Positions 14,608 to 39,134 of a stretch of DNA of 39,134 nt are shown here, in pieces. Numbering within the stretch: the first letter of the stretch is position 1; each line of letters begins with the position of its first letter. The translations under genes and the position numbers were made by a program. The DNA comes from Prevotella sp. (GTDB lineage: Bacteria; Bacteroidota; Bacteroidia; Bacteroidales; Bacteroidaceae). The notes under the pieces are model-generated. The model was not told the origin of the DNA and ran no database searches. It saw only the letters and a list, made by a program, of their open reading frames with translations. Location of the stretch: positions 1-39,134 of the forward strand of contig JAFXZF010000038.1 of assembly GCA_017541365.1 (NCBI GenBank), given 5' to 3'.

Positions 14608-14643
14608 AAAAAAACATGCAGGCACTGCTATTGCAATGCCTGC
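14608..14643 (-). terminator. terminator overlapping the 3' end of the MetY-like gene
   Basis: GCAGGCA/TGCCTGC stem (14618-14624 / 14637-14643), then seven T on the minus strand. The stem includes the last codons of the gene ending at 14628. Confidence 0.75.
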
Positions 14644-15800
14644 ACTATATCCTCGTAGAGGTCATCCACATGCTCCAGACCCACGGAAAGACGCAACGTG
14701 GTATCTCTTACATCCATAGCCCTGCGCTGACTGCCCGAGAAGGCGGCGAAGATGGTGGAGGCTGGATGCAAGGCAAGAGACTTGTTGTCGAAAAGGTTAG
14801 AGGCACGGTGTATCACCCTGAAGCCCTCCAGCACCCGCAGAGCAGTCTGCTTGTCCTCAAGGTCGATGGTGAGCATTGCTCCTGCCGTCTCTCCAAACTG
14901 CCGACGGGAGATTTCATAGAAGGGATTGTCAGGCAGCCCCGTATAGTTCACCCTCTTTATCTCGGGCACTCCTTGCAGGCGCTTGGCTAACTCCAATGCC
15001 GTGGAGGACTGTACCCTGTAGCGTGCGTCAAGGCTCTCAAGCCCCACTGTCTGCATATATGCGGCATGGGGTGTCATGTAGTAACCCATGTTGAAGAGCA
15101 GTTCGAAGCGCGTCTTGCGGTTTATCTGGGGAAATGTGCCGTAGTCTATCACCAAACCGCCGAGGCTGGTGGCTCCTGCTGAGATGTATTTTGTGGAACT
15201 GACCACTTGTGCATCCATGCCCAGTGCCTTTGCATCAAACTTAGTGAATGGTATGAGGGTGGTATCGGCTATGAGTGGCACTCCCTTGGCGTGGGCTATT
15301 CCGGCTAAGGCTGAGAGGTCAGCCACCTCCATCTGAGGATTGGTGATAATCTCAAGAAAAACACACGCCGTATTCTCATCAACAGCACTGCGGACGGCAT
15401 CGAGGTCGAGCAGATTGACCTCCCGCGTCTCGACACCGAGGGGACCGAGCGTATTGCGCATAAGACTGACGGTATTGCCAAACAGATGGTTGCTGGTGAC
15501 GATATTCTTTCCAGCCTTGACGAAGCACAGCAGCACATTGGTAATTGCCGCCATGCCGGAGTTGAATGCAAATACATTGGCAGCAGCGGTTAGTGACTTT
15601 ACACGGTTCTCGAAGAACGTCACCGTGGGGTTCACCACCCTGACATACTCGGGGGCATCTGAACGCCCGGTAAAGGAGTCGGTCATCTGCTTCGCCGTGT
15701 CGAACTCGAAGGCGCAGCAATGATATACAGGCATACTGAGTGCTCCGTATGCGTCAGGTCTCTGATAGTCTGTCCTTGTAGCAATAGTTTGTTTCTTCAT
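14628..15800 (-). CDS. O-acetylhomoserine/O-succinylhomoserine sulfhydrylase-like PLP enzyme
   Basis: Cys/Met-metabolism PLP enzyme of the cystathionine gamma-synthase/MetY family, probably fixing sulfide or cysteine sulfur into homocysteine. 390 aa. Visible: PVYHCCAFEF, YVRVVNPTVTFFENRV, FNSGMAAITN (PLP phosphate), IADTTLIPF, and the Schiff-base lysine in VSSTKYISAGATSLGG. MetY, MetB and methionine gamma-lyase cannot be separated by eye. Its promoter shares one palindromic operator (15883-15904) with the divergent sulfate operon, which supports a role in sulfur assimilation. A 31-bp internal stretch (14984-15014) recurs exactly at 33413-33443. Confidence 0.8.
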   Translation of the reverse strand: MKKQTIATRTDYQRPDAYGALSMPVYHCCAFEFDTAKQMTDSFTGRSDAPEYVRVVNPTVTFFENRVKSLTAAANVFAFNSGMAAITNVLLCFVKAGKNIVTSNHLFGNTVSLMRNTLGPLGVETREVNLLDLDAVRSAVDENTACVFLEIITNPQMEVADLSALAGIAHAKGVPLIADTTLIPFTKFDAKALGMDAQVVSSTKYISAGATSLGGLVIDYGTFPQINRKTRFELLFNMGYYMTPHAAYMQTVGLESLDARYRVQSSTALELAKRLQGVPEIKRVNYTGLPDNPFYEISRRQFGETAGAMLTIDLEDKQTALRVLEGFRVIHRASNLFDNKSLALHPASTIFAAFSGSQRRAMDVRDTTLRLSVGLEHVDDLYEDIVQALQ

Positions 15801-19201: not shown

Positions 19202-20104
19202 ATGAGTAACAAGACAACACATCTAAAAGAATTAGAGTCGGAGGCAATATACGTCATCCGCGAAGTGGCATCACAATTTGAAAAACCAGCCCTGCTCTTC
19301 TCTGGCGGAAAAGATTCCATAGTGCTGGCGTACCTTAGTTATAAGGCATTCTACCCGTCACCCATCCCCTTTCCTTTCGTTCATATCGACACAGGGCATA
19401 ACTTCATCGAGACCATAGACTATCGTGACCAGCTGGTGGCACGTCTGGGCGTGAAGCTTATCGTTGGCAGTGTGCAACAGAGCATTGACGAGGGCAGAGT
19501 GGTGGAAGAGACAGGTTATAATGCCTCACGCAACAAACTGCAGACGGTCACCCTTCTTGATACCCTTGAGAAGTATAAGTTTGATGCCGCCATAGGTGGT
19601 GCCCGTCGTGATGAAGAGAAGGCACGTGCCAAGGAGCGATTCTTCTCTCATCGTGACGAGTTCGGACAGTGGGATCCTAAGAACCAGCGCCCAGAGTTGT
19701 GGAACATCTTCAATGGCAAGAAAAACCTGGGTGAGCATTTCAGAGTGTTCCCCATATCCAACTGGACGGAGATGGATGTGTGGCAGTATATACTGCAAGA
19801 GAACATCCCCCTTCCCTCATTATACTACACTCATGAGCGCGAAGTGTTCAACAGAGACGGCGTTTGGCTCGCCAAATATCCGTTCATCAAACTGAAGCCC
19901 GATGAGAAGGTTGAGACAAGGCAAGTGCGTTGCCGCACCATAGGCGACATAACCTGTACGGGACTCACCCTCTCCACAGCTCACACCATCGAGGATATTA
20001 TTGATGAAATAGCATCATCGCGCATCACAGAGCGTGGCGGCAGAGCTGATGACAAACGTTCAGAGGCTGCGATGGAAGACAGAAAGAAAGAAGGATACTT
20101 TTGA
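19202..20104 (+). CDS. cysD: sulfate adenylyltransferase subunit 2
   Basis: Small catalytic subunit of ATP sulfurylase, making APS from sulfate and ATP with CysN. 300 aa, full length. The PP-loop SGGKDS (34-39) is intact, followed by HIDTGHNF and the GGARRDEEKARAKER signature. The C-terminus RGGRADDKRSEAAMEDRKKEGYF matches the family. Lies between the PstA-like permease and cysN in one operon; 44 bp before the cysN ATG. Confidence 0.97.
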   Translation: MSNKTTHLKELESEAIYVIREVASQFEKPALLFSGGKDSIVLAYLSYKAFYPSPIPFPFVHIDTGHNFIETIDYRDQLVARLGVKLIVGSVQQSIDEGRVVEETGYNASRNKLQTVTLLDTLEKYKFDAAIGGARRDEEKARAKERFFSHRDEFGQWDPKNQRPELWNIFNGKKNLGEHFRVFPISNWTEMDVWQYILQENIPLPSLYYTHEREVFNRDGVWLAKYPFIKLKPDEKVETRQVRCRTIGDITCTGLTLSTAHTIEDIIDEIASSRITERGGRADDKRSEAAMEDRKKEGYF

Positions 20105-20116
20105 ACAGTGTCACAG

Positions 20117-20148
20117 TTTTTCAATATTCATTTTTCAATTTTCAATTT
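20117..20148 (+). repeat. 7-bp-period repeat upstream of cysN
   Basis: Imperfect tandem copies of TTTTCAA/TATTCAT between cysD and the cysN ATG. The same unit recurs inside the sulfite reductase gene. Confidence 0.6.
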
Positions 20149-21417
20149 ATGAACAAACGAGGATATTTAGATATGGAACTATTGCGCTTCACTACTGCAG
20201 GAAGCGTTGATGATGGCAAATCCACCCTGATAGGCAGATTGCTATATGACTCAAAATCAATATTTGAAGACCAATTAGAGGCTGTAGAGGCAGCATCAGA
20301 GCGACTGGGTAATGCCGAAGTGAACCTGGCGCTGCTTACTGACGGCCTGCGTGCAGAACGCGAGCAGGGCATTACGATTGATGTGGCATACCGATATTTT
20401 GCCACCCCCAAGCGCAAGTTTATCATTGCCGATACCCCAGGGCACATAGAGTACACCCGCAACATGGTGACAGGAGCATCCACTGCCGATGCGGCAATCA
20501 TTCTTGTCGATGCCCGCAATGGTATCACAGAGCAGACCAAGCGCCACTCATACATAGCCTCACTGCTCAAGATAGACCACGTAGTGGTAGCTATAAACAA
20601 GATGGACTTGGTGGATTTCTCCGAGGAGGTATATAACAATATAAAGCAGGAATACGCCCGTATTGCTGAATTATTGCGACTGAAGAATGTCTATTTCATT
20701 CCCATTTCGGCTCTCAAGGGCGATAATGTGGTAAATCCTTCAGAACACACGCCATGGTACAAGGGTGAAACCCTCCTGCATCTTCTCGAACAGATACCAT
20801 TGAAGGAAGGCATAACCCAACAGCCGTTCCGTTTTCCCGTGCAGTATGTGGTGCGCCCTCAGACTGCTGAGTGGCCCGACTACCGAGCCTATGCAGGCAG
20901 GATAGCCTCTGGCATCATCAAGGTGGGTGACGAGGTTACGATATTGCCGTCAGGCACCACCTCAAAGGTCAGTCGCATCGATGAGGGCACAAAGCAGCTG
21001 CAGGAGGCAGCAGCCCCACAGAGTGTAAGCATCAGTCTTGAGGATGATGTTGACGTCAGTCGTGGCAGTCAGATAGTAAAGACCAGCGAGCCAGCCCATG
21101 TAGGTCAGCAAGTGGAGATATTGCTGTGTTGGCTAAACCATCGTCCGCTTCAGCTCAGACAGAAATACATCATTCGCCACACCACGGCAGAGCTGCAGGG
21201 CATAGTAACCTCAATAGACTATAAGGTAAATATCAATACCCTTGAGAACGTTACTGACGATACCACTGTCAACATGAACGACATAGCCCGAGTAACGCTG
21301 AAGGTTTCCAAACCTCTTGCCTACGACCTCTATGCTGCGAATCGCACCACAGGCTCTCTCATCTTCATTGCTGAAGGTACCAACGAGACAGTTGGTGCAG
21401 GAATGATACTCCTTTAA
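20149..21417 (+). CDS. cysN: sulfate adenylyltransferase subunit 1 (GTPase)
   Basis: GTPase subunit of ATP sulfurylase. 422 aa from ATG 20149 (MNKRGYLDMELLRF); ATG 20173 is an alternative, and a TTG at 20101 would translate the 7-bp repeat and is unlikely. G motifs: GSVDDGKST (18-26), DTPGH (95-99), NKMD (150-153). EF-Tu-like beta-barrels follow. There is no C-terminal APS kinase (CysC) domain and no cysC nearby, which agrees with direct APS reduction by the CysH encoded next. Confidence 0.96.
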   Translation: MNKRGYLDMELLRFTTAGSVDDGKSTLIGRLLYDSKSIFEDQLEAVEAASERLGNAEVNLALLTDGLRAEREQGITIDVAYRYFATPKRKFIIADTPGHIEYTRNMVTGASTADAAIILVDARNGITEQTKRHSYIASLLKIDHVVVAINKMDLVDFSEEVYNNIKQEYARIAELLRLKNVYFIPISALKGDNVVNPSEHTPWYKGETLLHLLEQIPLKEGITQQPFRFPVQYVVRPQTAEWPDYRAYAGRIASGIIKVGDEVTILPSGTTSKVSRIDEGTKQLQEAAAPQSVSISLEDDVDVSRGSQIVKTSEPAHVGQQVEILLCWLNHRPLQLRQKYIIRHTTAELQGIVTSIDYKVNINTLENVTDDTTVNMNDIARVTLKVSKPLAYDLYAANRTTGSLIFIAEGTNETVGAGMILL

Positions 21418-21446
21418 TCTCCTTCAAACTCCCCCCCCAAAAAAAA

Positions 21447-22157
21447 ATGAACATTGACGAACTAAACAACCGCTTCAGGGATAGCAGTCCCGAAGAAGTG
21501 TTGGACTATTTCCTTCCCCTGTATGGCGACCGTATAGCCCTTGCATCCAGTTTGGGACTTGAAGACCAGGTCCTTACGTCCCTGATAGTGAAGAGTGCCA
21601 GGCGCACGGGGGTAAAGAATCCTCGCATCTTCACCATTGATACGGGGCGCCTGTTTCCAGAGTGTTATAATCTCATCGACCGCACCAATGACAAGTATGA
21701 CATCCGTATCGAGGTGTTTTCGCCCGACCACAGAGGTGTAGAGGCTTATGTGGGTGAACATGGTGTGAATGCCTTCTACCAGTCGGTGGAACTGCGCAAG
21801 GCGTGCTGCCACTGTCGCAAACTCGAGCCACTGCGCCGTGCCCTCTCCACCCTCGATGTGTGGATATGCGGACTGCGGGCGTCGCAGGCAGTCACGCGCA
21901 CAGGAGTGCAGGTGGTGGAATGGGATAGTAATAACAATCTCATAAAGGTCAACCCCCTTGCCCGTTGGAGCGAGGACGATGTGTGGCAGTATATCAAGGC
22001 GCACAAGGTGCCTTACAACAAACTCCATGATCAGGGTTTCCCCTCTATAGGTTGCCAACCATGTACCCGTGCCATAGAACCAGGCGAGGATATACGTGCA
22101 GGCCGTTGGTGGTGGGAGTCACCCGAACATAAAGAATGTGGACTTCATAAGAGATAA
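21447..22157 (+). CDS. cysH: APS reductase, iron-sulfur type
   Basis: Reduces adenylyl sulfate (APS) to sulfite with thioredoxin. 236 aa. Cluster cysteines Cys120-Cys121 (KACCHCRKL) and Cys203/Cys206 (GCQPC) mark the [4Fe-4S] APS-type rather than PAPS-type enzyme. The catalytic cysteine is Cys231 in the C-terminal ECGLHKR. The substrate loop SLGLEDQ and GLRASQAVTR are intact. Seven bases separate it from the sulfite reductase. A thioredoxin gene at 32964 could supply electrons. Confidence 0.95.
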   Translation: MNIDELNNRFRDSSPEEVLDYFLPLYGDRIALASSLGLEDQVLTSLIVKSARRTGVKNPRIFTIDTGRLFPECYNLIDRTNDKYDIRIEVFSPDHRGVEAYVGEHGVNAFYQSVELRKACCHCRKLEPLRRALSTLDVWICGLRASQAVTRTGVQVVEWDSNNNLIKVNPLARWSEDDVWQYIKAHKVPYNKLHDQGFPSIGCQPCTRAIEPGEDIRAGRWWWESPEHKECGLHKR

Positions 22158-22164
22158 AAAAAGT

Positions 22165-24519
22165 ATGATAGGATATAAATTACCAGACAGTCTGTCAAAG
22201 GACATAGACAAGTTTGCCTCCTTAGCCAAGGGCTATCAGGAGCACAGTGTCAGTGCCACGGAGTTTAAGGCATTCCGTGTGCCACTGGGTGTTTACGAGC
22301 AACGTAAGAACGAGGTCTATATGGCTCGCATTCGTGCTACGGGTGGAGTGATCACGCCCCGTCAGTTGCTCAGCGTTATCGATATAGCCCAAAAGGGTGG
22401 TTCCAACCTGCTGCATATCACCACTCGTGGCGAGGTGCAGATACTCAACCTCAATGTGAACAGCGTGGAACAAGTGCTTCGCAGTCTGCAGGAGATAGGA
22501 CTGGCTACCAAGGGCGGTGGAGGCAATACGGTGCGCAACATCATCGTCAGCGAGTTTTCGGGCATCGGCAAGAGCGAGGTGTTTGACACCACGCCTTACG
22601 CTATGGCACTCACCAGTGCCATGGTGGCTGAGCCAGACTCTTATCTCATGCCCCGCAAGTTGAAGATAGCCTTCTCAAGCGATGAGAATTTCATCGACTA
22701 TGCAGGAGTTAACGATATCGGACTCGTATCACAAATAAAAGACGGCAAGCGAGGCTTCCGTGTGTATATAGGTGGTGGCGCTGGCAGCAAACCCTCTGTA
22801 GGATGGCTGTGGCGCGACTTTCTGCCCGCGGAAGATCTCTACGCCCTTGTCAAAGCCGTCAAGACATTCTTCAATGCCCACGGCAATCGCAAGGATAAGT
22901 ACAAGGCACGCCTGCGCTTCATCTTCTATAAGTTGGGTAAGGAAGAAGCCTTCCGCCTTATCGACGAGTATTTTGAGAAAGAAAAGGAGAAAGGAGACTC
23001 ACCCCTAACCCCTCTCGTTAATACTTCCCCTCTAATTGTTCCCCTCTCTCCAAGAGAGGGGTTAGGGGTGAGTCCTGGAGAGGGAGTTGAGTCTTTCAGC
23101 CGCTATACCTATCTCCAACGTCAGCAGGGCTATGCCTCAGTGGTTGTTCCTATTACCCTTGGTAATATATGGCTTAACGACGCAGAGAGTGTAAGAAACC
23201 TCAGGGTGCTGCTGGAGTATGTCAGCAAGTTTGGTGATGACACGGTGCGCTTTACCCCCAAGCAGAATATCCGACTGAGGAATATTCCCGTCAGTGCGCT
23301 TGGTGAGCTCTATACCTTAATATATAAGTATGTGCCAGAGAATATTGACAAGCCGGCCATACTCAATAATATCGTCTCTTGTACTGGTGCCGACACCTGC
23401 CGCTTGGGCATCTGTCTGTCAAAAGGACTCACGTCGGCAATCACCAAGGCACTGGCAGACAGCGGACTTGACCTCGATATCTTGCAGTCGGCACGCATCA
23501 ATGTCACTGGTTGTCCTAACCTTTGTGGTCAGCCCCTGTGGAGCGACCTCGGGTTTGTAGGCAAGGTGCTGCATACCGACCATGTGTATCCTGCATACCA
23601 GGTGTTTATAGGTGCCAACTATACTGACAACCCTGCACTTGCCGAAAGCATAGGCACCATAAGTGCCCACGACGTGCCAAAGTTCGTTGTCGATTTAGTG
23701 AGAGAATACGGTTCTCAATTTTCAATTTTCAATTTTCAATTTGGCGAATGGCTCCGCTCTGAGGCAGGCAAGAAGATAGCTGTTCAGCTCGTAGAGAAAT
23801 ACAGTCATGTGCCACTGTTCTCTGAAGACAAGAACTACTACTTCGACTGGGGCAGCGATGAAGTGTTCAACGTCACCAAGCGTGGCAAACCCGAGTGCTC
23901 GGCAGGACTGTTTGATATGATTCAGGTTGACCAAGACAGCATCAATGAAGCACGCGACAAGAATCCTTATGCCGTGATTTTCCATGCTTCGCGTATGCTG
24001 CTTGTCACTCGCGGTCTCGATCCGCAGGATGATGCTGGAGTATTCGATGCCTTCATAGACCACTTTATAAAGACGGGATATGTTGACGCTGGTTTCACTG
24101 ACCTCATCAACCAGGCAAAAAGGTATGGTGAACAGGGCAGCTACGACGGTGACCGTGCCAATGCCCTTGCCGATGCAGTGATAGAATTGTATCGAGGTAT
24201 GGATGAGAGCCTGAATTTTAGCTCCCCCCGCTCCGTCTCTCCCTTAAAGGGGGAATACTCCCTCCCTAAAACGAACTCTCCCTCAAAGGAAGAGCCAAAG
24301 AGGGTCAAAGACCTCCGTGGTGTGCTCTGTCCGATGAACTTTGTTCGAACAAAATTGGAGCTGGCAACGCTTAACAGTGGCGACCTGCTTGAGATATGGC
24401 TTGACGACGGCAAACCCATTGAGAATGTTCCAGGCTCTGTCAGGCTCGAAGGCCACGAGATACTGTCACAGACTCAGCACTCGGATGGTTATTGGCAGGT
24501 CATCATAAAGAAAAAGTAG
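22165..24519 (+). CDS. siroheme sulfite reductase fused to C-terminal TusA-like domain
   Basis: Reduces sulfite to sulfide. 784 aa from ATG 22165 (MIGYKLPDSL); an upstream in-frame ATG inside cysH is less likely. Ferredoxin-like and siroheme/[4Fe-4S] halves span about 30-510, with cluster ligands Cys406, Cys412, Cys450 and Cys454 (CTGADTC, GCPNLC). About 525-680 is a helical, HEPN-like region. The last 70 residues are a TusA/SirA fold with the sulfur-carrying CPMN motif (Cys722). Three stretches look inserted: a palindromic element at 278-310, a 7-bp-period repeat at 517-527, and a proline/serine linker with hairpins at 686-712. Nitrite reductase activity is a weaker alternative; operon context favours sulfite. 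Confidence 0.9.
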   Translation: MIGYKLPDSLSKDIDKFASLAKGYQEHSVSATEFKAFRVPLGVYEQRKNEVYMARIRATGGVITPRQLLSVIDIAQKGGSNLLHITTRGEVQILNLNVNSVEQVLRSLQEIGLATKGGGGNTVRNIIVSEFSGIGKSEVFDTTPYAMALTSAMVAEPDSYLMPRKLKIAFSSDENFIDYAGVNDIGLVSQIKDGKRGFRVYIGGGAGSKPSVGWLWRDFLPAEDLYALVKAVKTFFNAHGNRKDKYKARLRFIFYKLGKEEAFRLIDEYFEKEKEKGDSPLTPLVNTSPLIVPLSPREGLGVSPGEGVESFSRYTYLQRQQGYASVVVPITLGNIWLNDAESVRNLRVLLEYVSKFGDDTVRFTPKQNIRLRNIPVSALGELYTLIYKYVPENIDKPAILNNIVSCTGADTCRLGICLSKGLTSAITKALADSGLDLDILQSARINVTGCPNLCGQPLWSDLGFVGKVLHTDHVYPAYQVFIGANYTDNPALAESIGTISAHDVPKFVVDLVREYGSQFSIFNFQFGEWLRSEAGKKIAVQLVEKYSHVPLFSEDKNYYFDWGSDEVFNVTKRGKPECSAGLFDMIQVDQDSINEARDKNPYAVIFHASRMLLVTRGLDPQDDAGVFDAFIDHFIKTGYVDAGFTDLINQAKRYGEQGSYDGDRANALADAVIELYRGMDESLNFSSPRSVSPLKGEYSLPKTNSPSKEEPKRVKDLRGVLCPMNFVRTKLELATLNSGDLLEIWLDDGKPIENVPGSVRLEGHEILSQTQHSDGYWQVIIKKK
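22996..23093 (+). repeat. in-frame palindromic element inside sulfite reductase
   Basis: Perfect 21-bp inverted repeat, left arm 22996-23016 (starting GACTCACCCCTAACCC) and right arm 23054-23074, enclosing an inner CCCCTCTC/GAGAGGGG hairpin, then a degenerate third arm to about 23093. It keeps the reading frame and encodes about 33 residues with the sequence pattern SPLTPL and PREGLGVSPGE. Confidence 0.8.
23715..23742 (+). repeat. 7-bp-period repeat inside sulfite reductase
   Basis: Four near-perfect TTTTCAA units translated as SQFSIFNFQFG, between the siroheme core and the helical domain. Confidence 0.7.
24222..24300 (+). repeat. degenerate palindromic element in the linker before the TusA domain
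   Basis: C-rich/G-rich mini-hairpins (for example TCTCCCTTAAAGGGGGA) translated as a proline/serine linker containing VSPLKGEY and NSPSKEEP. It resembles the other in-frame palindromes but is more degenerate. Confidence 0.45.
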
Positions 24520-25743: not shown

Positions 25744-25745
25744 GA

Positions 25746-26879: not shown

Positions 26880-26913
26880 TAACACACACACTCTCTATTT
26901 GAGTCTATGTAAT

Positions 26914-26965: not shown

Positions 26966-26992
26966 CCCCACACTTCATGCAGCGGCGTCCAT

Positions 26993-27014
26993 GCATCCCT
27001 AACGTATGTGATAT
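26993..27014. promoter_or_regulatory. copy of the sulfur operator before hemC
   Basis: GCATCCC-TAACGTAT-GTGATAT: right arm perfect, left arm 4 of 7, spacer nearly identical to that at 15890-15897. The right arm starts 49 bp before the -7 element. Confidence 0.55.
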
Positions 27015-27032
27015 GAAACCTTAACAAAGGGT

Positions 27033-27064
27033 ATTGCCCGCATGAGAGAATGGAAGTAACTTTG
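27033..27064 (+). promoter_or_regulatory. main promoter (P2) of the hemC fusion
   Basis: Extended -33 ATTGCCC (27033-27039), TTG-to-TA spacing 20 bp, -7 TAACTTTG (27057-27064), 43 bp before the ATG. Confidence 0.7.
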
Positions 27065-27106
27065 CAGTCGGGAATTAAAAAAAAGGAATTTTAAACTAAT
27101 ATACTG

Positions 27107-30639: not shown

Positions 30640-30645
30640 TGATAT
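30624..30645. promoter_or_regulatory. copy of the sulfur operator before hemA
   Basis: ATATGAC-AAACGTTA-GTGATAT: one mismatch in the left arm, right arm perfect. Overlaps the stop codon of the sirC-like gene. The right arm starts 49 bp before the -7 element. Confidence 0.6.
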
Positions 30646-30663
30646 AATTACCTCGTGACAGCG

Positions 30664-30695
30664 ATTGCCCATGAAGGGTTATAGCAGTACCTTTG
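30664..30695 (+). promoter_or_regulatory. promoter of hemA
   Basis: Extended -33 ATTGCCC (30664-30670), 20-bp spacing, -7 TACCTTTG (30688-30695). Confidence 0.75.
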
Positions 30696-30711
30696 CAGCA
30701 GGTAATCGGAC

Positions 30712-30743
30712 GCACCGAAGGTGCTACGCTTTCCGAAGGAAAG
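30712..30743 (+). repeat. two hairpins in the hemA leader
   Basis: GCACC-gaa-GGTGC (30712-30724) and CTTTCC-gaa-GGAAAG (30729-30743), 4 bp apart (TACG), in the 5' untranslated region. Same style as the hairpin arrays before the PstS-like gene and hemL. Confidence 0.7.
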
Positions 30744-30763
30744 AATTAAACTAATAATGCAAA

Positions 30764-31594: not shown

Positions 31595-31609
31595 TTCACA
31601 ATTAAAAGT
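31557..31609 (+). repeat. 7-bp-period repeat spanning the hemA stop codon
   Basis: Alternating CAGTTCA and TAGTTCA units, six or seven copies, encoding the last HemA residues and running into the spacer. Confidence 0.75.
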
Positions 31610-31612
31610 TGT

Positions 31613-31667
31613 TATCGTAGCCGAAGGCGTTTCGTAGGTGCGCAGCACCGTTTCGTTTTCGTACGAA
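31613..31667 (+). repeat. hairpin array upstream of hemL
   Basis: TATCGTAG separator, GCC-gaa-GGC (31620-31628), GTTTCGTAG separator, GGTGC-gca-GCACC (31637-31649), then TTCGTACGAA. Same order as at 25746-25876: 7-bp repeat, hairpins, TTCGTACGAA palindrome, start codon. Confidence 0.7.
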
Positions 31668-31675
31668 GTTAAATT

Positions 31676-32947
31676 ATGACACGAGAAAAATCAACCAAGG
31701 CGTTTGCCGAGGCAACAAAATACATACCTGGCGGTGTAAACTCACCCGTCAGGGCACTCAGGGCTGTTGGCGAAACGCCACTGTTCATAGACCGCGCCAA
31801 GGGTGTCACCATTACCGATATTGACGGAAACCAGTACACTGACTTCTGTCTGTCATGGGGGGTATTCATAGCAGGACATGCCAACGAGCAGGTCACCCAG
31901 GCTGTGGGAGAGGCTATAGAACGTGGCACCAGCTACGGAATACCCACAGAGTTGGAGACGGCGCTGGCCAAGAGAGTAAGCAGCCTTATTCCGAGTATGG
32001 AGCAGGTGAGGTTTGTCAACTCCGGCACAGAGGCGGTGATGTCAGCTATAAGGTTGGCTCGGGGATATACTCGGAGAAACTACATACTGAAGTTTGAGGG
32101 GGGTTATCATGGTCATGCCGACCACCTGCTGGTGGCAGCAGGCTCAGGGGTGGCAACCTACGGCAGAAGCGGCAGCGCTGGTGTGCCTGATGACTTCGTT
32201 CGCTATACCCTCGTGGCACCCTTCAACAACAAGGAGGCGGTCAGCGAACTGTTCACTGAGAAGGGCAGCGACATAGCAGCAGTGATAGTGGAACCCGTGC
32301 CTGCAAATATGGGTGTGGTGCCTGAGAGAGAGCAGTTTCTGCAGTTCCTGCGTGACATAACCAGGGAGTATGGCAGTCTGCTGCTGTTTGATGAGGTGAT
32401 AACGGGATTCCGCCTTACACTGGGAGGGGCACAGCAGTACTACGGCATAGAGCCCGACCTGACCACCATCGGCAAGATTGTGGGCGGAGGATTCCCTGCT
32501 GCAGCGTTTGGCGGGCGAAAGGACATAATGCAGTTGTTGGCACCTGACGGTCCCGTCTATCAGGCTGGCACGCTGTCAGGCAACCCTGTCGCGATGACTG
32601 CAGGACTGGCAACTCTTGACGTTTTGAGTGAGCCCGGAGTGTATGAGCTTCTGAATGCCAAGGCAGAAAGCTTTATCAATCGTCTGCAGGAGGCACTCGC
32701 TCCCAAGGGGGTGGTGATAAACCATGTAGGAAACATGTTTACACCATATTTCACAAGTGGCAAGTCGCCTCGCAATTTCAGCGACGTCAAGCAAAGTAAC
32801 CTCGATGAGTTCGCACGCTTTTGGCGCTATATGTTGCACAATGGGGTGTATCTCTCGCCATCGCAGTTTGAGGCAGACTTCATATCCCTACAGCACACTG
32901 ACGACCAACTCAACCACATAGTTAAACTCGCAAAAGACTACAAATAA
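31676..32947 (+). CDS. hemL: glutamate-1-semialdehyde 2,1-aminomutase
   Basis: PLP enzyme making 5-aminolevulinate, which feeds HemB. 423 aa, full length, no inserts, in contrast to the other genes of this pathway. Visible: YIPGGVNSPVRAL, RFVNSGTEAVMSAIRLARG, GGYHGHAD, DEVITGFR and the Schiff-base Lys267 in TIGKIVGGGFP. No TAnnTTTG element was seen directly upstream, so it is probably co-transcribed with hemA across the hairpin array. Thioredoxin follows after 16 bp. Confidence 0.97.
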   Translation: MTREKSTKAFAEATKYIPGGVNSPVRALRAVGETPLFIDRAKGVTITDIDGNQYTDFCLSWGVFIAGHANEQVTQAVGEAIERGTSYGIPTELETALAKRVSSLIPSMEQVRFVNSGTEAVMSAIRLARGYTRRNYILKFEGGYHGHADHLLVAAGSGVATYGRSGSAGVPDDFVRYTLVAPFNNKEAVSELFTEKGSDIAAVIVEPVPANMGVVPEREQFLQFLRDITREYGSLLLFDEVITGFRLTLGGAQQYYGIEPDLTTIGKIVGGGFPAAAFGGRKDIMQLLAPDGPVYQAGTLSGNPVAMTAGLATLDVLSEPGVYELLNAKAESFINRLQEALAPKGVVINHVGNMFTPYFTSGKSPRNFSDVKQSNLDEFARFWRYMLHNGVYLSPSQFEADFISLQHTDDQLNHIVKLAKDYK

Positions 32948-32963
32948 AAAAAAACTATAAATT

Positions 32964-33281
32964 ATGGCAGAAATAAAAATTACCGACGACAATTACCAGG
33001 AGTTGTTAGCACAACAGAAACTGGTAGTAATAGATGTTTGGGCAACGTGGTGCGGACCATGTCAGCGTCTCTCACCCATCATAGCACAGGTAGCTGAGGA
33101 ATATAGCGACAAGGCTATTGTAGGAAAATACAATGCCGAGAACAACGAAGAACTGCTCGATAAGTTCGGTGTGCGTAATATCCCTACCATCCTCTTCATA
33201 AAAAACGGAGAAGTGCTCCATCGCCTTACTGGAGTGGTCAATGCTACAAAGATAAAGGACATCATAGACCAGTTTTCTTAA
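32964..33281 (+). CDS. trxA: thioredoxin
   Basis: Small cytoplasmic dithiol protein, 105 aa. The active site WATWCGPC is intact, and the cis-proline loop reads RNIPTIL. It is last in the hem cluster, 16 bp after hemL, and ended by a strong terminator. Thioredoxin is the usual reductant of CysH-type APS reductases, which may explain its place in a sulfur island. Confidence 0.96.
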   Translation: MAEIKITDDNYQELLAQQKLVVIDVWATWCGPCQRLSPIIAQVAEEYSDKAIVGKYNAENNEELLDKFGVRNIPTILFIKNGEVLHRLTGVVNATKIKDIIDQFS

Positions 33282-33331
33282 CCACCAGTTGTGTGAGTCA
33301 CCTCTAAGGTGATAATCTGTGGCATATAATC

Positions 33332-33369
33332 AAAAAGCCCCGTGCGGAGAATACCTGCACGGGGTTTTT
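33332..33369. terminator. bidirectional terminator between trxA and cysE
   Basis: CCCCGTGC (33338-33345) pairs with GCACGGGG (33357-33364), flanked by A5 on the left and T5 on the right, so it can end both the trxA and the cysE transcripts. Confidence 0.9.
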
Positions 33370-33412
33370 GGTGAACAAAGTGACATTTGTGACATTTCGG
33401 CAAAATGGGGTG

Positions 33413-33443
33413 TGGCTAACTCCAATGCCGTGGAGGACTGTAC
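33413..33443. repeat. 31-bp exact copy of an internal part of the MetY-like gene
   Basis: Identical to 14984-15014, which lies inside the MetY-like coding sequence. Here it is non-coding, between the trxA/cysE terminator and the cysE stop. Flanks do not match. Confidence 0.85.
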
Positions 33444-33446
33444 TCT

Positions 33447-34370
33447 TTATATTCCCGTTCCGTCCTCGAAGCCGCGATGTCCGCGGAAGTTGGTGTAAAT
33501 CTTGCTGTCAGGAGCCACATTCTCGGTTATCCACTTATTTGCACCTATCACGGAGCGGTCGCCGATGGTTATCCTGCCCAAAATGGAGGCATTGCTATAG
33601 ATTATCACGTCGTCGCCGATGATGGGGTGACGGGCGATGCCCTTGATGGGGTTGCCGTCCTTGTCGAGAGGGAAGGAGAGAGCCCCGAGGGTTACTCCCT
33701 GATAGAGTTTCACGCGGTTGCCTATGATACAGGTGGAGCCTATTACTACGCCAGTGCCGTGGTCAATGGTGAAATGACTGCCTATCTTAGCGGCAGGATG
33801 AATGTCGATGCCTGTCTCGGAGTGTCCCAGTTCGGTTATCATACGGGGTATGAGGGGCACACCCAGTTCGTGGAGCTCGTGGGCAAAGCGGTAGTTGCAC
33901 AGGGTGCGGATGACGGGGTAGCAGGCGATAATCTCGCCAAACGAGGTAGCTGCGGGGTCACCCTTGTAGGCAGCCTCGATATCAGTGGCGAGCATCTCGC
34001 GGATGCGTGGCAGGCGCTCTATGAGCAGAGTAGTGATGAGGATAGCCTTCTGGCGTATGGGGTTGATGTCCACCTCGCCGTCTTCCTTGCGCAGGTCAAA
34101 GCATAGTCCAGCTACAATCTGCTTCTTCAGCAGACTGTAGAGCCTCTCTAAAGACACGCCGATATAGTAGTCGAGGGTATCCTGACCTACCTTGCACTGT
34201 CCGAAGTATCCTGGCAGGAGAATCTCGCGAGCCAGTTGTATAATCTCTTCCAACGCACCATTGGACGGCAACGGCACGTGGTCAAGTTTCTGATGAAGAA
34301 GTCCCTTCACGCTTTCAGGCGCGGAAAGGGACTTCGTCGTACTCTTTATGGTCTGTGTGAGTGATTTCAT
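33447..34370 (-). CDS. cysE: serine O-acetyltransferase
   Basis: Acetylates serine to O-acetylserine, the substrate of CysK. 307 aa: helical N-terminal half, then left-handed beta-helix hexapeptide repeats (GIDIHPAAKIGSHFTIDHGTG, VIGSTCIIGNRVKLYQGVTLGA, HPIIGDDVIIYSNASILGRITIG). The His of the FTIDHGTG motif matches the catalytic one. Two bases after the cysteine desulfurase stop, so in one operon with the encapsulin; serine acetyltransferases are known neighbours of Family 2 encapsulin loci. Confidence 0.95.
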   Translation of the reverse strand: MKSLTQTIKSTTKSLSAPESVKGLLHQKLDHVPLPSNGALEEIIQLAREILLPGYFGQCKVGQDTLDYYIGVSLERLYSLLKKQIVAGLCFDLRKEDGEVDINPIRQKAILITTLLIERLPRIREMLATDIEAAYKGDPAATSFGEIIACYPVIRTLCNYRFAHELHELGVPLIPRMITELGHSETGIDIHPAAKIGSHFTIDHGTGVVIGSTCIIGNRVKLYQGVTLGALSFPLDKDGNPIKGIARHPIIGDDVIIYSNASILGRITIGDRSVIGANKWITENVAPDSKIYTNFRGHRGFEDGTGI

Positions 34371-34372
34371 AT

Positions 34373-36019
34373 CTACTTTCTGTCAGCCACAATTTTTTGT
34401 AAAGCGATTACGAGACGGTCCACCTCTTCCTTAGTGTTATAGACAGCAAAGGTTGGGCGCACGGACATCTCATAGCCCAGAGCACGCAGGGCTGGCTGGG
34501 CGCAGTGATGGCCTGCACGCACGGCTATGCCCTCCTTGTCGAGCAGTTGTCCCACCTCAGGGGCAGGAATGCCAGGAATGTCGAGCGAGATGACGCTGAC
34601 ACGATGCTTGGGGTTGCCAATGATGGTGATGCCAGGTATGCGAGATATCTGCTGGCGTGCATACTCGGTGAGCTCGTGCTCGTGGCGCTCTATGTTGTAG
34701 ATGCCTACGGAGTTGACAAAGTCAAGGGCATAGCCCAGTCCGATGGCGTCGGCAATGTTTGGCGTACCTGCCTCGAAACGTGCTGGCGGAGCATTAAACT
34801 CAGTCTTCTCGATGGTGACATCCTTAATCATATTGCCACCACCCTGCCAAGGAGGAAGTTGGGCGAGCCACTCCTTCTTGCCATACACCACGCCGATGCC
34901 AGAAGGACCGTAGATTTTATGTCCAGAGAAGACGAAGAAGTCAGCATCGAGTTCCTGAACGTCAACCTTGGTGTGGGCTATGGACTGTGCTCCGTCGATG
35001 AGCACGGGAATGCCGTGGGAGTGGGCTATGCGGATGATGGTGCGCACATCGTTGATAGTGCCGAAGGTGTTGTTGACATGACCAACAGACACAAACTTGG
35101 TCTGGGGCGAGATGAGACGCTCAAATTCAGAGAGTATCAGGTCGCCGTTCTGATCAACGGGTATGGCACGCAACTCCGCTCCCTGTGCCTGGGCTATCTG
35201 CTGCCAAGGCACGATGTTGGCATGATGGTCGAGGGTGGAAACTATGACGTTATCGCCCTTGGAGAGAAACTTTCGGCCAAAGGTATGTGCCACGAGGTTG
35301 ATGCCCTCGGTGGTGCCACGCACGAATACTATGTTCTCCTGTGACGGTGCGTTGATAAAGTCGGCCACCTTCTGCCTTGCTGCCTCATACTGGTCAGTAG
35401 AACGGGCTGCAAGGGTATGAGCGCCACGATGGATGTTGGAATAGTCTGTCTTGTAAAACTTAGACAGTCCGTCGATGACGCGCAGAGGCTTCTGGGTGGT
35501 AGCACCGTTGTCAAACCATATCAGGTCGTGGCCGTTCACCTTCTGATGGAGCACTGGAAACTGGTCGCGTATCTGGTTGGAGTTGACCACATCGGCTTCC
35601 TCGTAATGCAGATTTTGCACCAGTTCCGTCTCAGGTATGCCTATGCCGAAACCGTTCTCGCGAAGCACCGTCTCAGTATCGCTGAGAGCCACATCGTCGC
35701 CCTGCTCTCCTGCTGCTACTTCCAGAGGGTCTGGGAGAGACGCCTCACTGGGTTCTGAGTGAAGAGGTTGCCCAGCTTCGTCAGGGAAGTATTTCTCTAC
35801 CACGCCTCTGAACAGTTGGCATTCGTAGGGGTTGAGCGAGCCTATGTCGCCCGTACCCAGTGAAGGTACGGACGGACTGCCCTGTGGCAATGCCGCACTC
35901 GCAGGAGTGGGTGTCACATCAGCAGGGTGAGGAGGCTCCTCAGGGGCTTCGTTAGGCACAGCTATCTGAGGTATGCTTCCGATACCTGGCAGGTTTGCTA
36001 TGTTAATATCATCTATCAT
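34373..36019 (-). CDS. cysteine desulfurase with long N-terminal extension, probable encapsulin cargo
   Basis: Type II (SufS-like) PLP enzyme taking sulfur from cysteine and releasing alanine. 548 aa against about 405 usual. Residues 163-548 are the catalytic domain: FDNGATTQKP, STLDHHANIVPW, PLP Lys368 in FSGHKIYGPSG, ARFEAGTPN, and active Cys506 in RAGHHCAQP. Residues 1-148 are a low-complexity Pro/Glu/Ser-rich extension with a short ordered-looking stretch LNPYECQLFRGVVEKYFP (62-79). Such extensions target cysteine desulfurases into Family 2 encapsulins, and the shell gene lies 30 bp upstream. Targeting here is inferred, not shown. Confidence 0.93.
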   Translation of the reverse strand: MIDDINIANLPGIGSIPQIAVPNEAPEEPPHPADVTPTPASAALPQGSPSVPSLGTGDIGSLNPYECQLFRGVVEKYFPDEAGQPLHSEPSEASLPDPLEVAAGEQGDDVALSDTETVLRENGFGIGIPETELVQNLHYEEADVVNSNQIRDQFPVLHQKVNGHDLIWFDNGATTQKPLRVIDGLSKFYKTDYSNIHRGAHTLAARSTDQYEAARQKVADFINAPSQENIVFVRGTTEGINLVAHTFGRKFLSKGDNVIVSTLDHHANIVPWQQIAQAQGAELRAIPVDQNGDLILSEFERLISPQTKFVSVGHVNNTFGTINDVRTIIRIAHSHGIPVLIDGAQSIAHTKVDVQELDADFFVFSGHKIYGPSGIGVVYGKKEWLAQLPPWQGGGNMIKDVTIEKTEFNAPPARFEAGTPNIADAIGLGYALDFVNSVGIYNIERHEHELTEYARQQISRIPGITIIGNPKHRVSVISLDIPGIPAPEVGQLLDKEGIAVRAGHHCAQPALRALGYEMSVRPTFAVYNTKEEVDRLVIALQKIVADRK

Positions 36020-36025
36020 AATTAT

Positions 36026-36053
36026 GAATTATGCACTATGAACTATGAACTAT
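36026..36053 (-). repeat. 7-bp-period repeat between encapsulin and desulfurase genes
   Basis: Plus-strand GAATTAT-GCACTAT-GAACTAT-GAACTAT, immediately before the desulfurase start and touching the encapsulin stop. Confidence 0.6.
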
Positions 36054-37489
36054 TTCTCAATCTGGTTTCTGTGCTGGTAATCGTGGTAGTAACCTACCTC
36101 CACATTCTCAAGCACGGCGATGGCATCGTCGGTGAGTGCTGCAAGGCTGAAATACTTAGTCAGCAAGTAGCTTGCCACACCAAACTGATCCAGACCCATG
36201 AGGCGTGCTGAGAGTGATGGCGCAATCTCGCCAGGGATGCCGCTCTGGTGCAGACCGATGACTCCCTGCTCCTTCTCGCCTACGCGAACGAGGATGATGT
36301 CGGTGGTTCCTACGCCGCGATTGGTGAGGTACTGTCCCTTGATTTCCACCTTGTCAGAAGGAATGATAGGCACACCGCGCCATGTGATAACCTTAGTGCC
36401 GAAGAGGTCGATAGCCACTGGAGGCACTCCGCGCCAGGTGCACTCGCGCTCAAAGGCAGCGATGGCACGTGGATTGGCAATGAAGAATGCAGGTTCCTTC
36501 CACACGAGTGAGAGGAGTTCGTCGAGGTCGTCAGGCGTAGGAGTGCCATAACGGGCGCTGATCTTGTAGCCAGGAGAAGCCTGAGCCAGGAGTCCGAACT
36601 TCTTGTTGTTGATAAGTTCCCACTCCTGACGCTCCTTGATAGACTCGATGGAGAGTCGCAACTGCTGCTCTAACTGGTTGTAAGGAGCATTGTAGAGGTC
36701 GCTCACACGGGTGTGTACACGTACTACGGTCTGCAGGGTGTTGAGCGAATACTCTGTAGGGTTCTCCTCATAGTCGATGTATGTCTCAGGGATAACGTTG
36801 TCCTCCTCGTGTCCGCTAACCAGGTCTATGTGCTTCTCGCCGTGGTCGTTTACGGTAGCCTTGATGCGGAGGTGTTCCTCAACGGCATTGCTAAACTGCT
36901 CGCGGAACTTAGGGTTATCTTTGATAATCTGTTCGAGCACAGGGGTGTCGAGCTGCAGGAATACAGAGTCAGTCACGGCACGTACAGAGACGGTAGAGTC
37001 AGCAGCGCTGAGCAGGTCGGCCTCGCCAAAATACTCGCCGTCACCCAACAGGGCTATGCGCAATTCCTCGCCGTGAGTGCCAGTAGAGATAACCTCAGCC
37101 TGACCGTTGGCAACGATGAAGAATTTCTGCTTATCCTTGCCCTGAGTAACGAGATTCTTGCCTCGCGCCACCTCAACAGGCTTGAAGTTCTGGGCAAGAC
37201 GAGTCACGATGTCCTCGTCAATATGCTGGAACACAGGAACGGCGCGCAGATTCTTGGCTGTGAAACTTGGTTCGCCTTCGAAATACTGTATCTGAATGCG
37301 GTCAGCCTTTTTCAGTTCCACCTTAGTGCGGTTAACGCGATAGGTGCCACTTTCTACCTGAGTCCAAGGCAGGAGCTTAAGCAGAAGACGTGGAGTGATG
37401 GAGCCCATCTGAGGGGGCGTCTTGGTAGTGTTCGCAAGTTTGCGAGCTGTCTGGGTAGTAATACTACGCTGAATGTTGTTGTCTGCCAT
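36050..37489 (-). CDS. Family 2B encapsulin shell protein (with cyclic-nucleotide-binding-like insert)
   Basis: HK97-fold shell protein that self-assembles into a nanocompartment. 479 aa. Recognised by similarity to SrpI-type Family 2 encapsulins: TARKLANTTKTPPQM, ITPRLLLKLLPWTQVESGTYRVNRTK, TYIDYEENPTEYSLNTLQTVVRVHTRVSDLYN, RLSIESIKERQEWELIN, GTPTPDDLDELLSLVWKEPAFF and the end ALTDDAIAVLENVEVGYYHDY. About 82-205 is an inserted cyclic-nucleotide-binding-like domain, which defines group 2B. Its phosphate cassette reads FGEADLLSAADSTVSVRA, with Ser165 where cAMP binders have Arg. No signal peptide. First of the shell/cargo/cysE trio. Confidence 0.93.
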   Translation of the reverse strand: MADNNIQRSITTQTARKLANTTKTPPQMGSITPRLLLKLLPWTQVESGTYRVNRTKVELKKADRIQIQYFEGEPSFTAKNLRAVPVFQHIDEDIVTRLAQNFKPVEVARGKNLVTQGKDKQKFFIVANGQAEVISTGTHGEELRIALLGDGEYFGEADLLSAADSTVSVRAVTDSVFLQLDTPVLEQIIKDNPKFREQFSNAVEEHLRIKATVNDHGEKHIDLVSGHEEDNVIPETYIDYEENPTEYSLNTLQTVVRVHTRVSDLYNAPYNQLEQQLRLSIESIKERQEWELINNKKFGLLAQASPGYKISARYGTPTPDDLDELLSLVWKEPAFFIANPRAIAAFERECTWRGVPPVAIDLFGTKVITWRGVPIIPSDKVEIKGQYLTNRGVGTTDIILVRVGEKEQGVIGLHQSGIPGEIAPSLSARLMGLDQFGVASYLLTKYFSLAALTDDAIAVLENVEVGYYHDYQHRNQIEK

Positions 37490-37530
37490 AATTGTAATTG
37501 AATTTTTTAGTTTTACGATTTGTTATACTT

Positions 37531-37755
37531 TTATTTCTCTATTGTCACCTTGTGAACGCCATTGCCTACGGGCTCTACGGAAAGCACTTTGTAACCCTGC
37601 TCAGTAGCTGAGCGTGGCACGTTTTCCAGCGGTTCGCCCTCGGCAAGCAGCACTTCGAGTATATCGCCAGCCTGCAGTTGTGCAAGTCTTAACTTCGTCT
37701 TAACGAAGGTCATAGGACAATGTTCCTTTGTAATATCTAATGTGTATGTAGCCAT
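37531..37755 (-). CDS. TusA-like sulfur carrier protein
   Basis: Small protein likely carrying persulfide sulfur. 74 aa from ATG 37755; an upstream in-frame start would translate the spacer. The family motif is HCPMTFVKTKL, with the sulfur-bearing Cys at residue 13, then AGDILEVLLAEGEPLENVPRS. It is close in sequence to the C-terminal domain of the sulfite reductase (CPMNFVRTKL, IENVP). It lies between the DsrE-like and encapsulin genes, 41 bp before the latter, and could pass sulfur to or from the encapsulated desulfurase. Confidence 0.9.
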   Translation of the reverse strand: MATYTLDITKEHCPMTFVKTKLRLAQLQAGDILEVLLAEGEPLENVPRSATEQGYKVLSVEPVGNGVHKVTIEK

Positions 37756-37771
37756 AATTGTAATTGATAAT

Positions 37772-38251
37772 TTAAATAAACAGCGTTCTTCCTCCCTCAC
37801 TTATGTTGAGGAATGTAGCCACTCCGAGCACGTCTTTCACCTCGTGAATGAAGTCACTCTTTTTGAGTCCGAGGATGTGCATCGCCATCTCACAGGCATA
37901 CATGTTAACACCCAGGGCACCAGCCGCCTCGACAAGTTCTTCGAGGGTAGCCACGTTGTTCTTCCTCATAAGGTAGCGGAATATCTTAGGTCCGATACCC
38001 AGGAAGTTGAAACGGCTGTTAGGAGCAACGCTGAGTCCGCCCATCATGTAGCCGAAAGTCTTGGTGAGCCAGTTGCTACCGATAAAGGCACGACCTTTCT
38101 TCTGCTTTATGGCATCAAGTCCCCAGAAAGTGAAGAAGATATTTACCTCATAGCCTACAGCAGCCGCTCCCGTTGCGAGAGTGAAGACAGCCGTAAGTTT
38201 GTCAAAGTCGCCCGAAAAGGCGATGAGTGAAAGTTTCTTTGTTTCTGCCAT
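37772..38251 (-). CDS. DsrE/DsrF-like sulfur-relay protein
   Basis: DsrE-family protein, 159 aa from ATG 38251 (MAETKKLSLIAFSGDFDKL). The Rossmann-like core (FTLATGAAAVGYEVNIFFTFWGL) and the Cys in NMYACEMAMHILGL, at the usual sulfur-accepting position, are visible. Central residues are rich in Gly/Met (TFGYMMGGLSVAPN), as in DsrE proteins that pair with TusA-like partners. It lies 16 bp upstream of tusA and 34 bp after cysK. A sulfur-trafficking role is inferred. Confidence 0.87.
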   Translation of the reverse strand: MAETKKLSLIAFSGDFDKLTAVFTLATGAAAVGYEVNIFFTFWGLDAIKQKKGRAFIGSNWLTKTFGYMMGGLSVAPNSRFNFLGIGPKIFRYLMRKNNVATLEELVEAAGALGVNMYACEMAMHILGLKKSDFIHEVKDVLGVATFLNISEGGRTLFI

Positions 38252-38253
38252 TT

Positions 38254-38276
38254 TGATAGTTGATAATTGATAATTT
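38254..38276 (-). repeat. 7-bp-period repeat before the DsrE-like gene
   Basis: Plus-strand GATAGTT-GATAATT-GATAATT in the cysK/DsrE spacer. Confidence 0.5.
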
Positions 38277-38285
38277 AACTGTGCA

Positions 38286-39134
38286 CTATTCCTCTTCCTC
38301 ATACTCATATAGACCAGTGGAGAGATAGCGCTCGCCAGTATCAGGGAGCAGCACCACGATGTTCTTGTCCTTATTTTCCAGACGCTTTGCCACCTCGATG
38401 GCTGCGTATGCTGCTGCGCCAGACGAGATGCCAACGAGCAGACCTTCCTGTTCGGCAAGTACTCGTGCGGTTTCGAAAGCATCATCATTCTTCACACGGA
38501 ATATCTCGTCATAAATATTGGTGTTGAGCACAGGTGGAACGAACCCTGCTCCTATGCCCTGCAATTTATGTGGGCCAGGCTTATGACCACTCAGCACGGC
38601 ACTGTCGTGAGGCTCCACGGCGATAATCTGTGCATCGGGATTGTGCTGGCGCAACACCTCGCCCACACCCGTTATGGTGCCGCCAGTACCTACGCCTGAA
38701 ATAAAAATGTCAACCTTTCCCTCCGTATCGCGCAATATCTCTTGTGCGGTAGTCTGGCGATGAGCCTCAGGATTAGCCTTGTTAGCAAACTGCTGTGGAA
38801 TGAAGGCATTACCTATCTCCTTGGCGAGCTGCTGTGCCCTGCGAATAGCTCCAGGCATACCCTCGTAGGCAGGGGTCAGCTCCAGTCGTGCACCAAGAGC
38901 CTGCAACAGTTTGCGGCGCTCTATGGTCATAGCGTCGGGCATGGTGAGGATAATCCTGTAGCCACGTGAGGCAGCTACGATTGCCAGTCCCACCCCAGTG
39001 TTGCCGCTGGTAGGCTCAATGATGGTAGTGCCCTTATTGATTAGTCCCTCCCTCTCAGCCTGATTGATAAGGGCAAGAGCCACACGATCCTTTACGCTAC
39101 GTCCAGGATTGGCAAACTCCAGTTTTGCCAGCAC
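38286..39134 (-). CDS. cysK: cysteine synthase (O-acetylserine sulfhydrylase), 5' end cut by window edge
   Basis: Makes cysteine from O-acetylserine and sulfide. 282 residues visible; roughly 30 N-terminal residues lie outside, since the first visible residues ([16 protein letters not shown]) are internal in CysK. The PLP lysine is in SVKDR; the phosphate/substrate loop [17 protein letters not shown] and the C-terminal [10 protein letters not shown] and [13 protein letters not shown] are intact. It is the first visible gene of the operon running cysK, DsrE-like, tusA, encapsulin, desulfurase, cysE. The operon promoter is probably outside the window. Confidence 0.96.

Follow-up and report, generated by a model that had tools for sequence, protein, structure and literature searches.

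Where would sulfur go that a cysteine desulfurase had released inside an encapsulin shell? The question is raised by a six-gene operon in contig JAFXZF010000038.1 of Prevotella sp. (assembly GCA_017541365.1), which was analysed over its whole length of 39,134 nucleotides and is called the window here. The six genes share the minus strand and encode an encapsulin shell, its predicted desulfurase cargo, two sulfur-relay proteins and enzymes of the CysK and CysE types:

33447..34370, minus strand: cysE-type serine O-acetyltransferase (PF00132; TIGR01172 158.9 bits, below the cut-off of 210.65)
34373..36019, minus strand: SufS-type cysteine desulfurase, predicted cargo, with a 148-residue N-terminal extension (TIGR01979 552.2 bits)
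36050..37489, minus strand: Family 2B encapsulin shell with an inserted CNMP-binding-like domain (NF041163, PF19307, PF00027, 9bje)
37531..37755, minus strand: TusA-type sulfur carrier of 74 amino acids (PF01206 75.1 bits)
37772..38251, minus strand: DsrE2-like sulfur relay protein of 159 amino acids (PF13686 133.1 bits)
38286 to the window end (39134), minus strand: cysK, cysteine synthase A (TIGR01139 434.3 bits, cut-off 350.95; PF00291)

Our tentative answer, for which we see a chance just short of even, is that shell and desulfurase form a sulfur store whose content the relay proteins pass into cysteine or homocysteine synthesis by way of a protein thiocarboxylate. What was observed is the gene content and its linkage, the conserved cysteines, the tail of a carrier protein and, in shell-less genomes, the cassette next to sulfite reductase; from these we infer the chemistry, the loading and the direction of transfer.

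The intergenic gaps, followed from cysE to cysK, are 2, 30, 41, 16 and 34 bp. A sequence-only reading of this stretch had placed six genes here with gaps of 2 to 41 bp, which the coordinates and family matches bear out, and it was right to link a Family 2B shell and desulfurase closely to two sulfur-relay proteins and to read them as a sulfur relay. The cysK gene is incomplete, its 5' end lying beyond the window, and its TIGR01139 match begins at model position 24. For TusA, the start was taken as the ATG at 37755; a longer GTG start is present in the list of open reading frames (ORFs). The HCPMTFV stretch of TusA, including its Cys, is unchanged across 76 aligned relatives; we take CPxP to be the TusA active-site motif, the second Pro of which reads Thr in the window protein. 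In the DsrE2-like protein, the Cys of the ACEMAM stretch does not vary among 77 aligned relatives, and the window DsrE did not reach the cut-off of the DsrE2 model NF047629 (68.5 vs 210 bits).

We investigated the gene content of related loci, which were collected by scanning genomes, one for each species. The scan gave 445 confirmed places, and the best 80 of the 445 were kept, mostly Bacteroidales bins from rumen and gut; the closest relative among them, L001, shows 98% shell identity. As a protein query, the shell had at least 7948 matches with E ≤1e-60, counted among 8000 scored candidates. Genes were counted with profiles built from the 80 loci, in six frames, on the strand of the shell and no more than 6.5 kb from it, and a full-flank subset was formed by the 55 loci whose sequence reached 5 kb or more upstream and 3.5 kb or more downstream of the shell. 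The desulfurase was found in all 80 loci, DsrE in 78, TusA in 77, cysK in 69 and cysE in 20, together with ThiS and ThiF (68 each) and JAB (66); further genes were a Cys/Met pyridoxal phosphate (PLP) enzyme (50), LuxR (21) and PatB (14). In the full-flank subset, desulfurase, DsrE and TusA were each present in all 55 loci, cysK, ThiS, ThiF and JAB in 49 each, and cysE in 14. The desulfurase directly adjoined the shell in 80/80 loci, and DsrE and TusA adjoined each other in 76/80. Clustering of unlabelled ORFs returned these same genes as the largest groups, and the largest group beyond the sulfur genes and LuxR occurred in 15 loci.

The relative order cysK..DsrE..TusA..shell-desulfurase recurred in 67 of the 80 loci, many of them with interruptions, and by profiles the five genes were direct neighbours in 31. 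The block of six exactly as in the window, with cysE last, is rare (3/80: L001, L053 and L057). A cluster confined to this single contig, which the sequence-only reading had named as a possible refutation, is therefore ruled out for the relative order. Assembly error as the source of the gene order is unlikely, since dozens of assemblies, though mostly metagenome bins, show it again. In a Bacteroidales order sample of 393 genomes, 10 contained the shell, and DsrE and TusA were near eight of these shells (the sister genome G001, L189-L193, L196 and L197); the locus L194 is cut at the shell. Two further features recurred near the cluster in 10 loci each, an ATP-grasp and esterase-like pair (L026, L028-L031, L034, L039, L041, L067 and L079) and a dicarboxylate symporter.

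The relay and the sulfur theme had been read correctly from the window, and what had been missed was the larger set to which the relay proteins belong in most relatives. At L061, this cassette encodes a 70-residue ThiS-family protein (PF02597), a ThiF/MoeB-family E1 (PF00899) and a Prok-JAB (JAMM) protease (PF14464). Through the ThiS-like carrier, E1 and JAMM of the relatives, the sulfur gets a specific predicted destination. Among 70 loci with the cassette, counted on either strand, the order was ThiS-ThiF-DsrE-TusA-JAB-shell in 38, and the cassette lay downstream of the desulfurase in 21, upstream in 7, divergently in 2 and otherwise in 2; since it occupies several positions relative to the shell, it has been re-linked and not merely inherited. 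The other 10 of the 80 loci had no cassette in reach, some being cut by contig ends, and a JAMM gene was found elsewhere in the genome for eight of nine such loci (the tenth, L008, was left out). In the order sample, 16 of the 393 genomes contained a JAMM gene and nine contained both JAMM and the shell (Fisher p 2.0e-13, with both samples taken as the same 393 and kinship ignored).

All 71 ThiS proteins of the window clade (from the 70 loci and the sister genome) extend past GGG (by 1-6 residues in 66 and by 10-40 in five), whereas all 22 ThiS proteins of encapsulin loci of green sulfur bacteria terminate at GGG; those loci yielded no JAMM gene. A carrier tail that would require trimming fits a JAMM partner. 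Neither ThiG nor ThiH was found in any of the 80 window-clade loci, which led us to reject thiamine synthesis as an explanation of ThiS in this clade. Judged by gene content, the position of shell and desulfurase beside a relay and carrier set suggests a store with an exit.

We next consider whether the desulfurase would enter the shell. Its SufS match (TIGR01979, cut-off 475.1) begins at residue 149, and its RAGHHCAQP and SGHK stretches are presumably parts of the active site. Against the cargo model NF041166 it scored 700.1 with a cut-off of 800, matching only model positions 217-623. The known cargo motifs of desulfurase encapsulins given in a passage of PMC8049743 are LARLANEFFS and AASPYYFLDG. 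A loose LARLANEFFS-like pattern, shaped on these sequences themselves, occurred in 46 of 63 different extensions vs ~0.1 in shuffles; a tighter pattern was found in 32 of the 63 vs 0.3 in shuffles. The structural model of the desulfurase is poor; it has a helix at 64-77, where the LARLANEFFS-like pattern sits, and the rest of the extension is of low confidence. An FGIGIPE-like stretch of the extension is conserved in 62/66. The desulfurase is therefore likely, but not certain, to be loaded into the shell.

The shell itself was described in the sequence-only reading as a SrpI-like encapsulin with a cyclic-nucleotide-binding-like insert, and domain matches and sequence matches to solved shells support this. 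The NF041163 (Family 2B) match reached 563.6 bits (cut-off 400), PF00027 covers residues 105-192 ahead of PF19307 at 209-466, the solved Family 2B shell 9bje aligns with residues 6-466 (E 5.8e-112), and SrpI (6x8m) matches on either side of the insert. An HK97 fold would be expected from the closeness of the sequence to these solved shells, but the predicted structure of the window shell itself was poor (mean predicted local distance difference test score, pLDDT, 49.9; predicted template-modelling score, pTM, 0.36). In a FastTree of 122 shells, the window clade, with 84 rows and a local support of 96, is separate from a green-sulfur clade (23 rows, 99), and the shell of L197, a locus with DsrE, TusA and ThiS, falls outside both. 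At one place in the phosphate-binding cassette of cyclic-nucleotide-binding domains the canonical residue is, we assume, Arg; Ser stands there in the window shell and also in the commonest listed variants, of which 12 come from the window clade and 7 from green sulfur bacteria. A passage of PMC12407261 states that encapsulin CNMP-type domains bind no cyclic nucleotide. Cyclic-nucleotide control of the shell is weakened by the absent Arg and by this statement.

The genes in front of the operon, which the sequence-only reading had missed, form a sulfate-assimilation island recognized by the domain matches of cysDNH and of a sulfite reductase-TusA fusion:

14628..15800, minus strand: Cys/Met PLP enzyme, O-succinyl/acetylhomoserine sulfhydrylase-like (MetZ-like) (PF01053; TIGR01325)
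19202..22157, plus strand: cysD, cysN and cysH (APS/PAPS reductase) (NF003587, TIGR02034 and NF002537, over cut-off)
22096..24519, plus strand: nitrite/sulfite reductase-family protein with a C-terminal TusA domain (739-806) (PF01077, PF03460, PF01206)
32964..33281, plus strand: thioredoxin (PF00085 94.7 bits)

The reductase was named a sulfite reductase from its position behind cysDNH, and the best NCBIfam match of the MetZ-like enzyme, TIGR01325, reached 286.3 bits against a cut-off of 510.05. Positions 14628-33281 read as a sulfate-assimilation and siroheme island, with heme/siroheme genes named partly by eye, and the encapsulin operon stands at its end.

Outside the encapsulin loci, the same cassette adjoins the sulfite reductase gene in five of the seven shell-less JAMM genomes of the order sample. 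At L231, L233, L234 and L235 the reductase-side cassette includes DsrE and TusA, and at L236 it consists of ThiS-ThiF-JAB only. A TusA domain stands directly at the reductase end in L231, L234, L235 and L236, and the L233 reductase runs to the contig end. As for the other two genomes, L237 has a TusA like the one fused to the window's reductase, with no reductase found, and L232 is cut at a contig end. Shell and desulfurase thus occupy the place where the sulfite reductase often stands in other genomes, and the location of the cassette mostly beside the sulfite reductase in shell-less genomes points to one donor replacing another.

The sister genome G001 carries ThiS, ThiF and JAB, with ThiS-ThiF-JAB-LuxR following hemL-thioredoxin (L176), where the window has the encapsulin operon. 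The sister's own encapsulin operon lies beside a pstB-like gene and ahead of a MetZ-like gene; in the window, these two genes are found at the end of the island away from the operon. The operon therefore stands at opposite ends of one sulfur island in the window (33281-33447) and the sister (L176, L173). Two similar stretches, PLTPLSKRGG and SPLLKRGVGG, lie in an insert of the window's hemB (29076-30182), and a CCCTCCCAAGGAGGGG-type stretch lies inside the open frame of the sister's JAMM gene (L176 976-1440); perhaps these are one kind of small repeat.

We also examined encapsulin loci of other groups. Of a phylum sample of 395 genomes, 58 exceeded the cut-off for Family 2B; six of the 58 were Family 2A shells scored with in-frame neighbours. 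The FMO antenna protein, a mark of green sulfur bacteria, was found in 11 of 12 tested genomes with a second Family 2B type. Green-sulfur encapsulin loci (L112-L165) have cysK, frequently cysE too, and some also contain the thiazole genes ThiS, ThiG, ThiH and ThiF; ThiG was present in 19 and ThiH in 18 of the 54 fetched places, with both query proteins checked by Pfam and NCBIfam, and DsrE, TusA and JAB were found in none of the 54, some of which are short. Several green-sulfur genomes have two shell loci. Nine plasmid encapsulin loci (L198-L206) were examined out of 32 matching records. At one of them, pACIB of Aliarcobacter cibarius (L200), a Family 2A shell is accompanied by desulfurase, cysE and cysK, and nearby are a CysM-like synthase, whose gene is cut and matches TIGR01138 best at 290.8 bits, together with JAMM, a ThiS-family carrier ending in GGI, E1 and rhodanese. 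Insertion sequence (IS) elements lie inside this CysO-type carrier cassette.

How the parts would work together can be set out from what is known of their families. The desulfurase, loaded through its N-terminal extension, would convert cysteine to alanine and sulfane sulfur, the latter being retained in the shell. At the shell or beyond it, DsrE2 and TusA may accept this sulfur in persulfide form. The JAMM protease would remove the tail after GGG of the ThiS-like carrier, the E1 would adenylate the carrier, and TusA persulfide would then yield the thiocarboxylate. CysK, with O-acetylserine from CysE, or a MetZ-like sulfhydrylase could transfer the carrier sulfur to its substrate, after which JAMM would free the amino acid from the carrier; the HcyS-HcyD-HcyF homocysteine route is among the nearest known systems. 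With sulfate available, the line may be fed by the sulfite reductase-TusA fusion, and with sulfate absent by the shell. We hold it possible, with somewhat more doubt than confidence, that the whole amounts to a protein-caged sulfur battery with TusA/DsrE2 discharge to a JAMM-trimmed ubiquitin-like carrier, in which the shell replaces sulfite reductase as donor and to which the Aliarcobacter Family 2A shell has similar wiring. If true, this would join the fields of encapsulins and ubiquitin-like sulfur carriers. The gene set names a concrete sulfur destination, a ThiS-type thiocarboxylate carrier, and it encodes every protein predicted for an in vitro reconstitution.

A simpler explanation is a plain sulfur store as in Family 2A desulfurase shells, whose neighbours would be merely co-regulated genes of sulfur assimilation with no direct hand-over. 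Sulfur storage by desulfurase encapsulins is already in print (passages of PMC12407261), the window operon ends a sulfate-assimilation island, where co-location is expected, and eight of the nine plasmid loci carry shell and desulfurase, often with cysE, and have no relay cassette. However, co-regulation does not readily account for DsrE and TusA within 6.5 kb of the shell in 55/55 full-flank loci when no family beyond the sulfur genes and LuxR exceeds 15 of the 80 loci, and the position of five of the seven shell-less cassettes beside sulfite reductase points to donor replacement; we consider this explanation rather unlikely. The relay might also run inward: the reductase-TusA fusion and the ThiS route would build cysteine from sulfate, TusA and DsrE2 would serve sulfate assimilation, and the desulfurase shell would only remove surplus or toxic cysteine. 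The fusion does lie with cysDNH in the window, and the cassette adjoins sulfite reductase in five of the seven shell-less genomes, four of the five with DsrE and TusA genes, but a separate TusA gene is near the shell in 77/80 loci, though the window's fusion already offers a TusA domain, and we regard the inward direction as improbable.

The cassette could, finally, have nothing to do with a thiocarboxylate route, the ThiS-like protein, E1 and JAMM serving instead for ubiquitin-like tagging of shell or cargo. The top NCBIfam match of the JAMM protein is a desampylase (59.8 bits, cut-off 130) and the second-best of the E1 is the SAMP-activating UbaA (337.4 bits, cut-off 450), both below cut-off, and protein conjugation has been proposed for some JAB-E1 operons in a passage of PMC1779556. 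The steady linkage to cysK, to the Cys/Met PLP enzyme and to sulfite reductase fits instead the sulfur-metabolism class 4e described there, and tagging appears very improbable.

Several observations weigh against the store with an exit that we favour. Charging and discharge of the shell, if run simultaneously, would be a futile cycle. By profiles, ThiS, E1/ThiF and JAMM/JAB were not found within the 39 kb window. In 38 of the 80 loci TusA directly adjoins the shell, in the other 42 it does not, and kinship among the 80 loci means that their counts are not independent. The YYFL motif occurs in 0 of 66 parsed extensions (of the 80 loci), as against 43/47 green-sulfur and 5/6 Family 2A extensions, and a first-motif profile built from green-sulfur and Family 2A cargo reached p 0.05 in only 5/66. 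The E1 of L061 has no rhodanese domain, the cysK of the relatives is of the CysK type by profile and not CysM, and L234, a shell-less Bacteroidales locus, has a carrier with a JAMM partner and a tail-less end at GGG. The cassette was not found at seven Family 2A or fragment loci of Bacteroidota (L166-L172) or, by profiles, at eight of the nine plasmid loci, and L195, from the order sample, has a shell with cysK and cysE and no relay gene in 8 kb upstream; another contig of its genome, L229, reads ThiF-DsrE-TusA-JAB-cysE-shell. In passages of PMC4175335, Metallosphaera DsrE2B is unreactive with every sulfur compound tested.

The closest known systems share parts of this arrangement. Sulfur storage in A. 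baumannii is reportedly described in a Sci. Adv. paper of 2024. Passages of PMC12407261 assign sulfur storage to desulfurase encapsulins, and the open-licence PubMed Central literature yielded no paper joining an encapsulin with TusA, a sulfur carrier protein or thiocarboxylate, and none on an encapsulin with cysteine desulfurase plus serine acetyltransferase together; for encapsulins and Bacteroidales it yielded a single phage review. Andreas and Giessen 2021 (PMC8346489) counted 199 Family 2B desulfurase encapsulin operons, with the same shell subfamily and cargo type as the window, and named serine acetyltransferases and rhodaneses as the most enriched accessory genes; its main text makes no mention of TusA, DsrE, ThiF or 'sulfur carrier'. 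On plasmid pANL of Synechococcus elongatus (SrpI/CyD, Family 2A), the order is cysK-cysE-srpI-cyd-rhodanese, so that cysK, cysE, shell and desulfurase are shared with the window; linkage to cysK, which had been put forward as new, is therefore already known there, as is linkage to cysE, and the acetyltransferase enrichment agrees. Unlike the window's, the pANL shell has no inserted domain, the plasmid has a rhodanese gene in place of TusA/DsrE2, no ThiS, E1 or JAMM was found in the fetched stretch, and its AASPYYFLDG cargo motif (passages of PMC8049743) has no YYFL counterpart here.

On the carrier side, the nearest likeness is the Mycobacterium CysO-CysM-Mec+-MoeZ pathway (passages of PMC3227635), in which, as in the relatives, a ThiS-type carrier, an E1, a JAMM protease and a cysteine synthase stand together. 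According to the same passages, an adenylated MoaD-type carrier can become a thiocarboxylate through a cysteine desulfurase or a rhodanese persulfide, and CysO-thiocarboxylate with CysM and Mec+ gives cysteine. Unlike this pathway, the relatives have an E1 without rhodanese, a synthase of the CysK and not the CysM type, and TusA/DsrE2 and an encapsulin nearby. SirA, of the TusA family, has been proposed as a rhodanese substitute in JAB-E1 sulfur operons (passages of PMC1779556). The class 4e ThiS-JAB-E1-SirA operons of the same work (Iyer et al. 2006), which include Wolinella, list neither encapsulin nor desulfurase in the passage concerned; they share with the loci described here the ThiS-like protein, JAB, E1, SirA/TusA, sulfite reductase and homoserine sulfhydrylase, and it is the shell-less Bacteroidales loci that resemble them.

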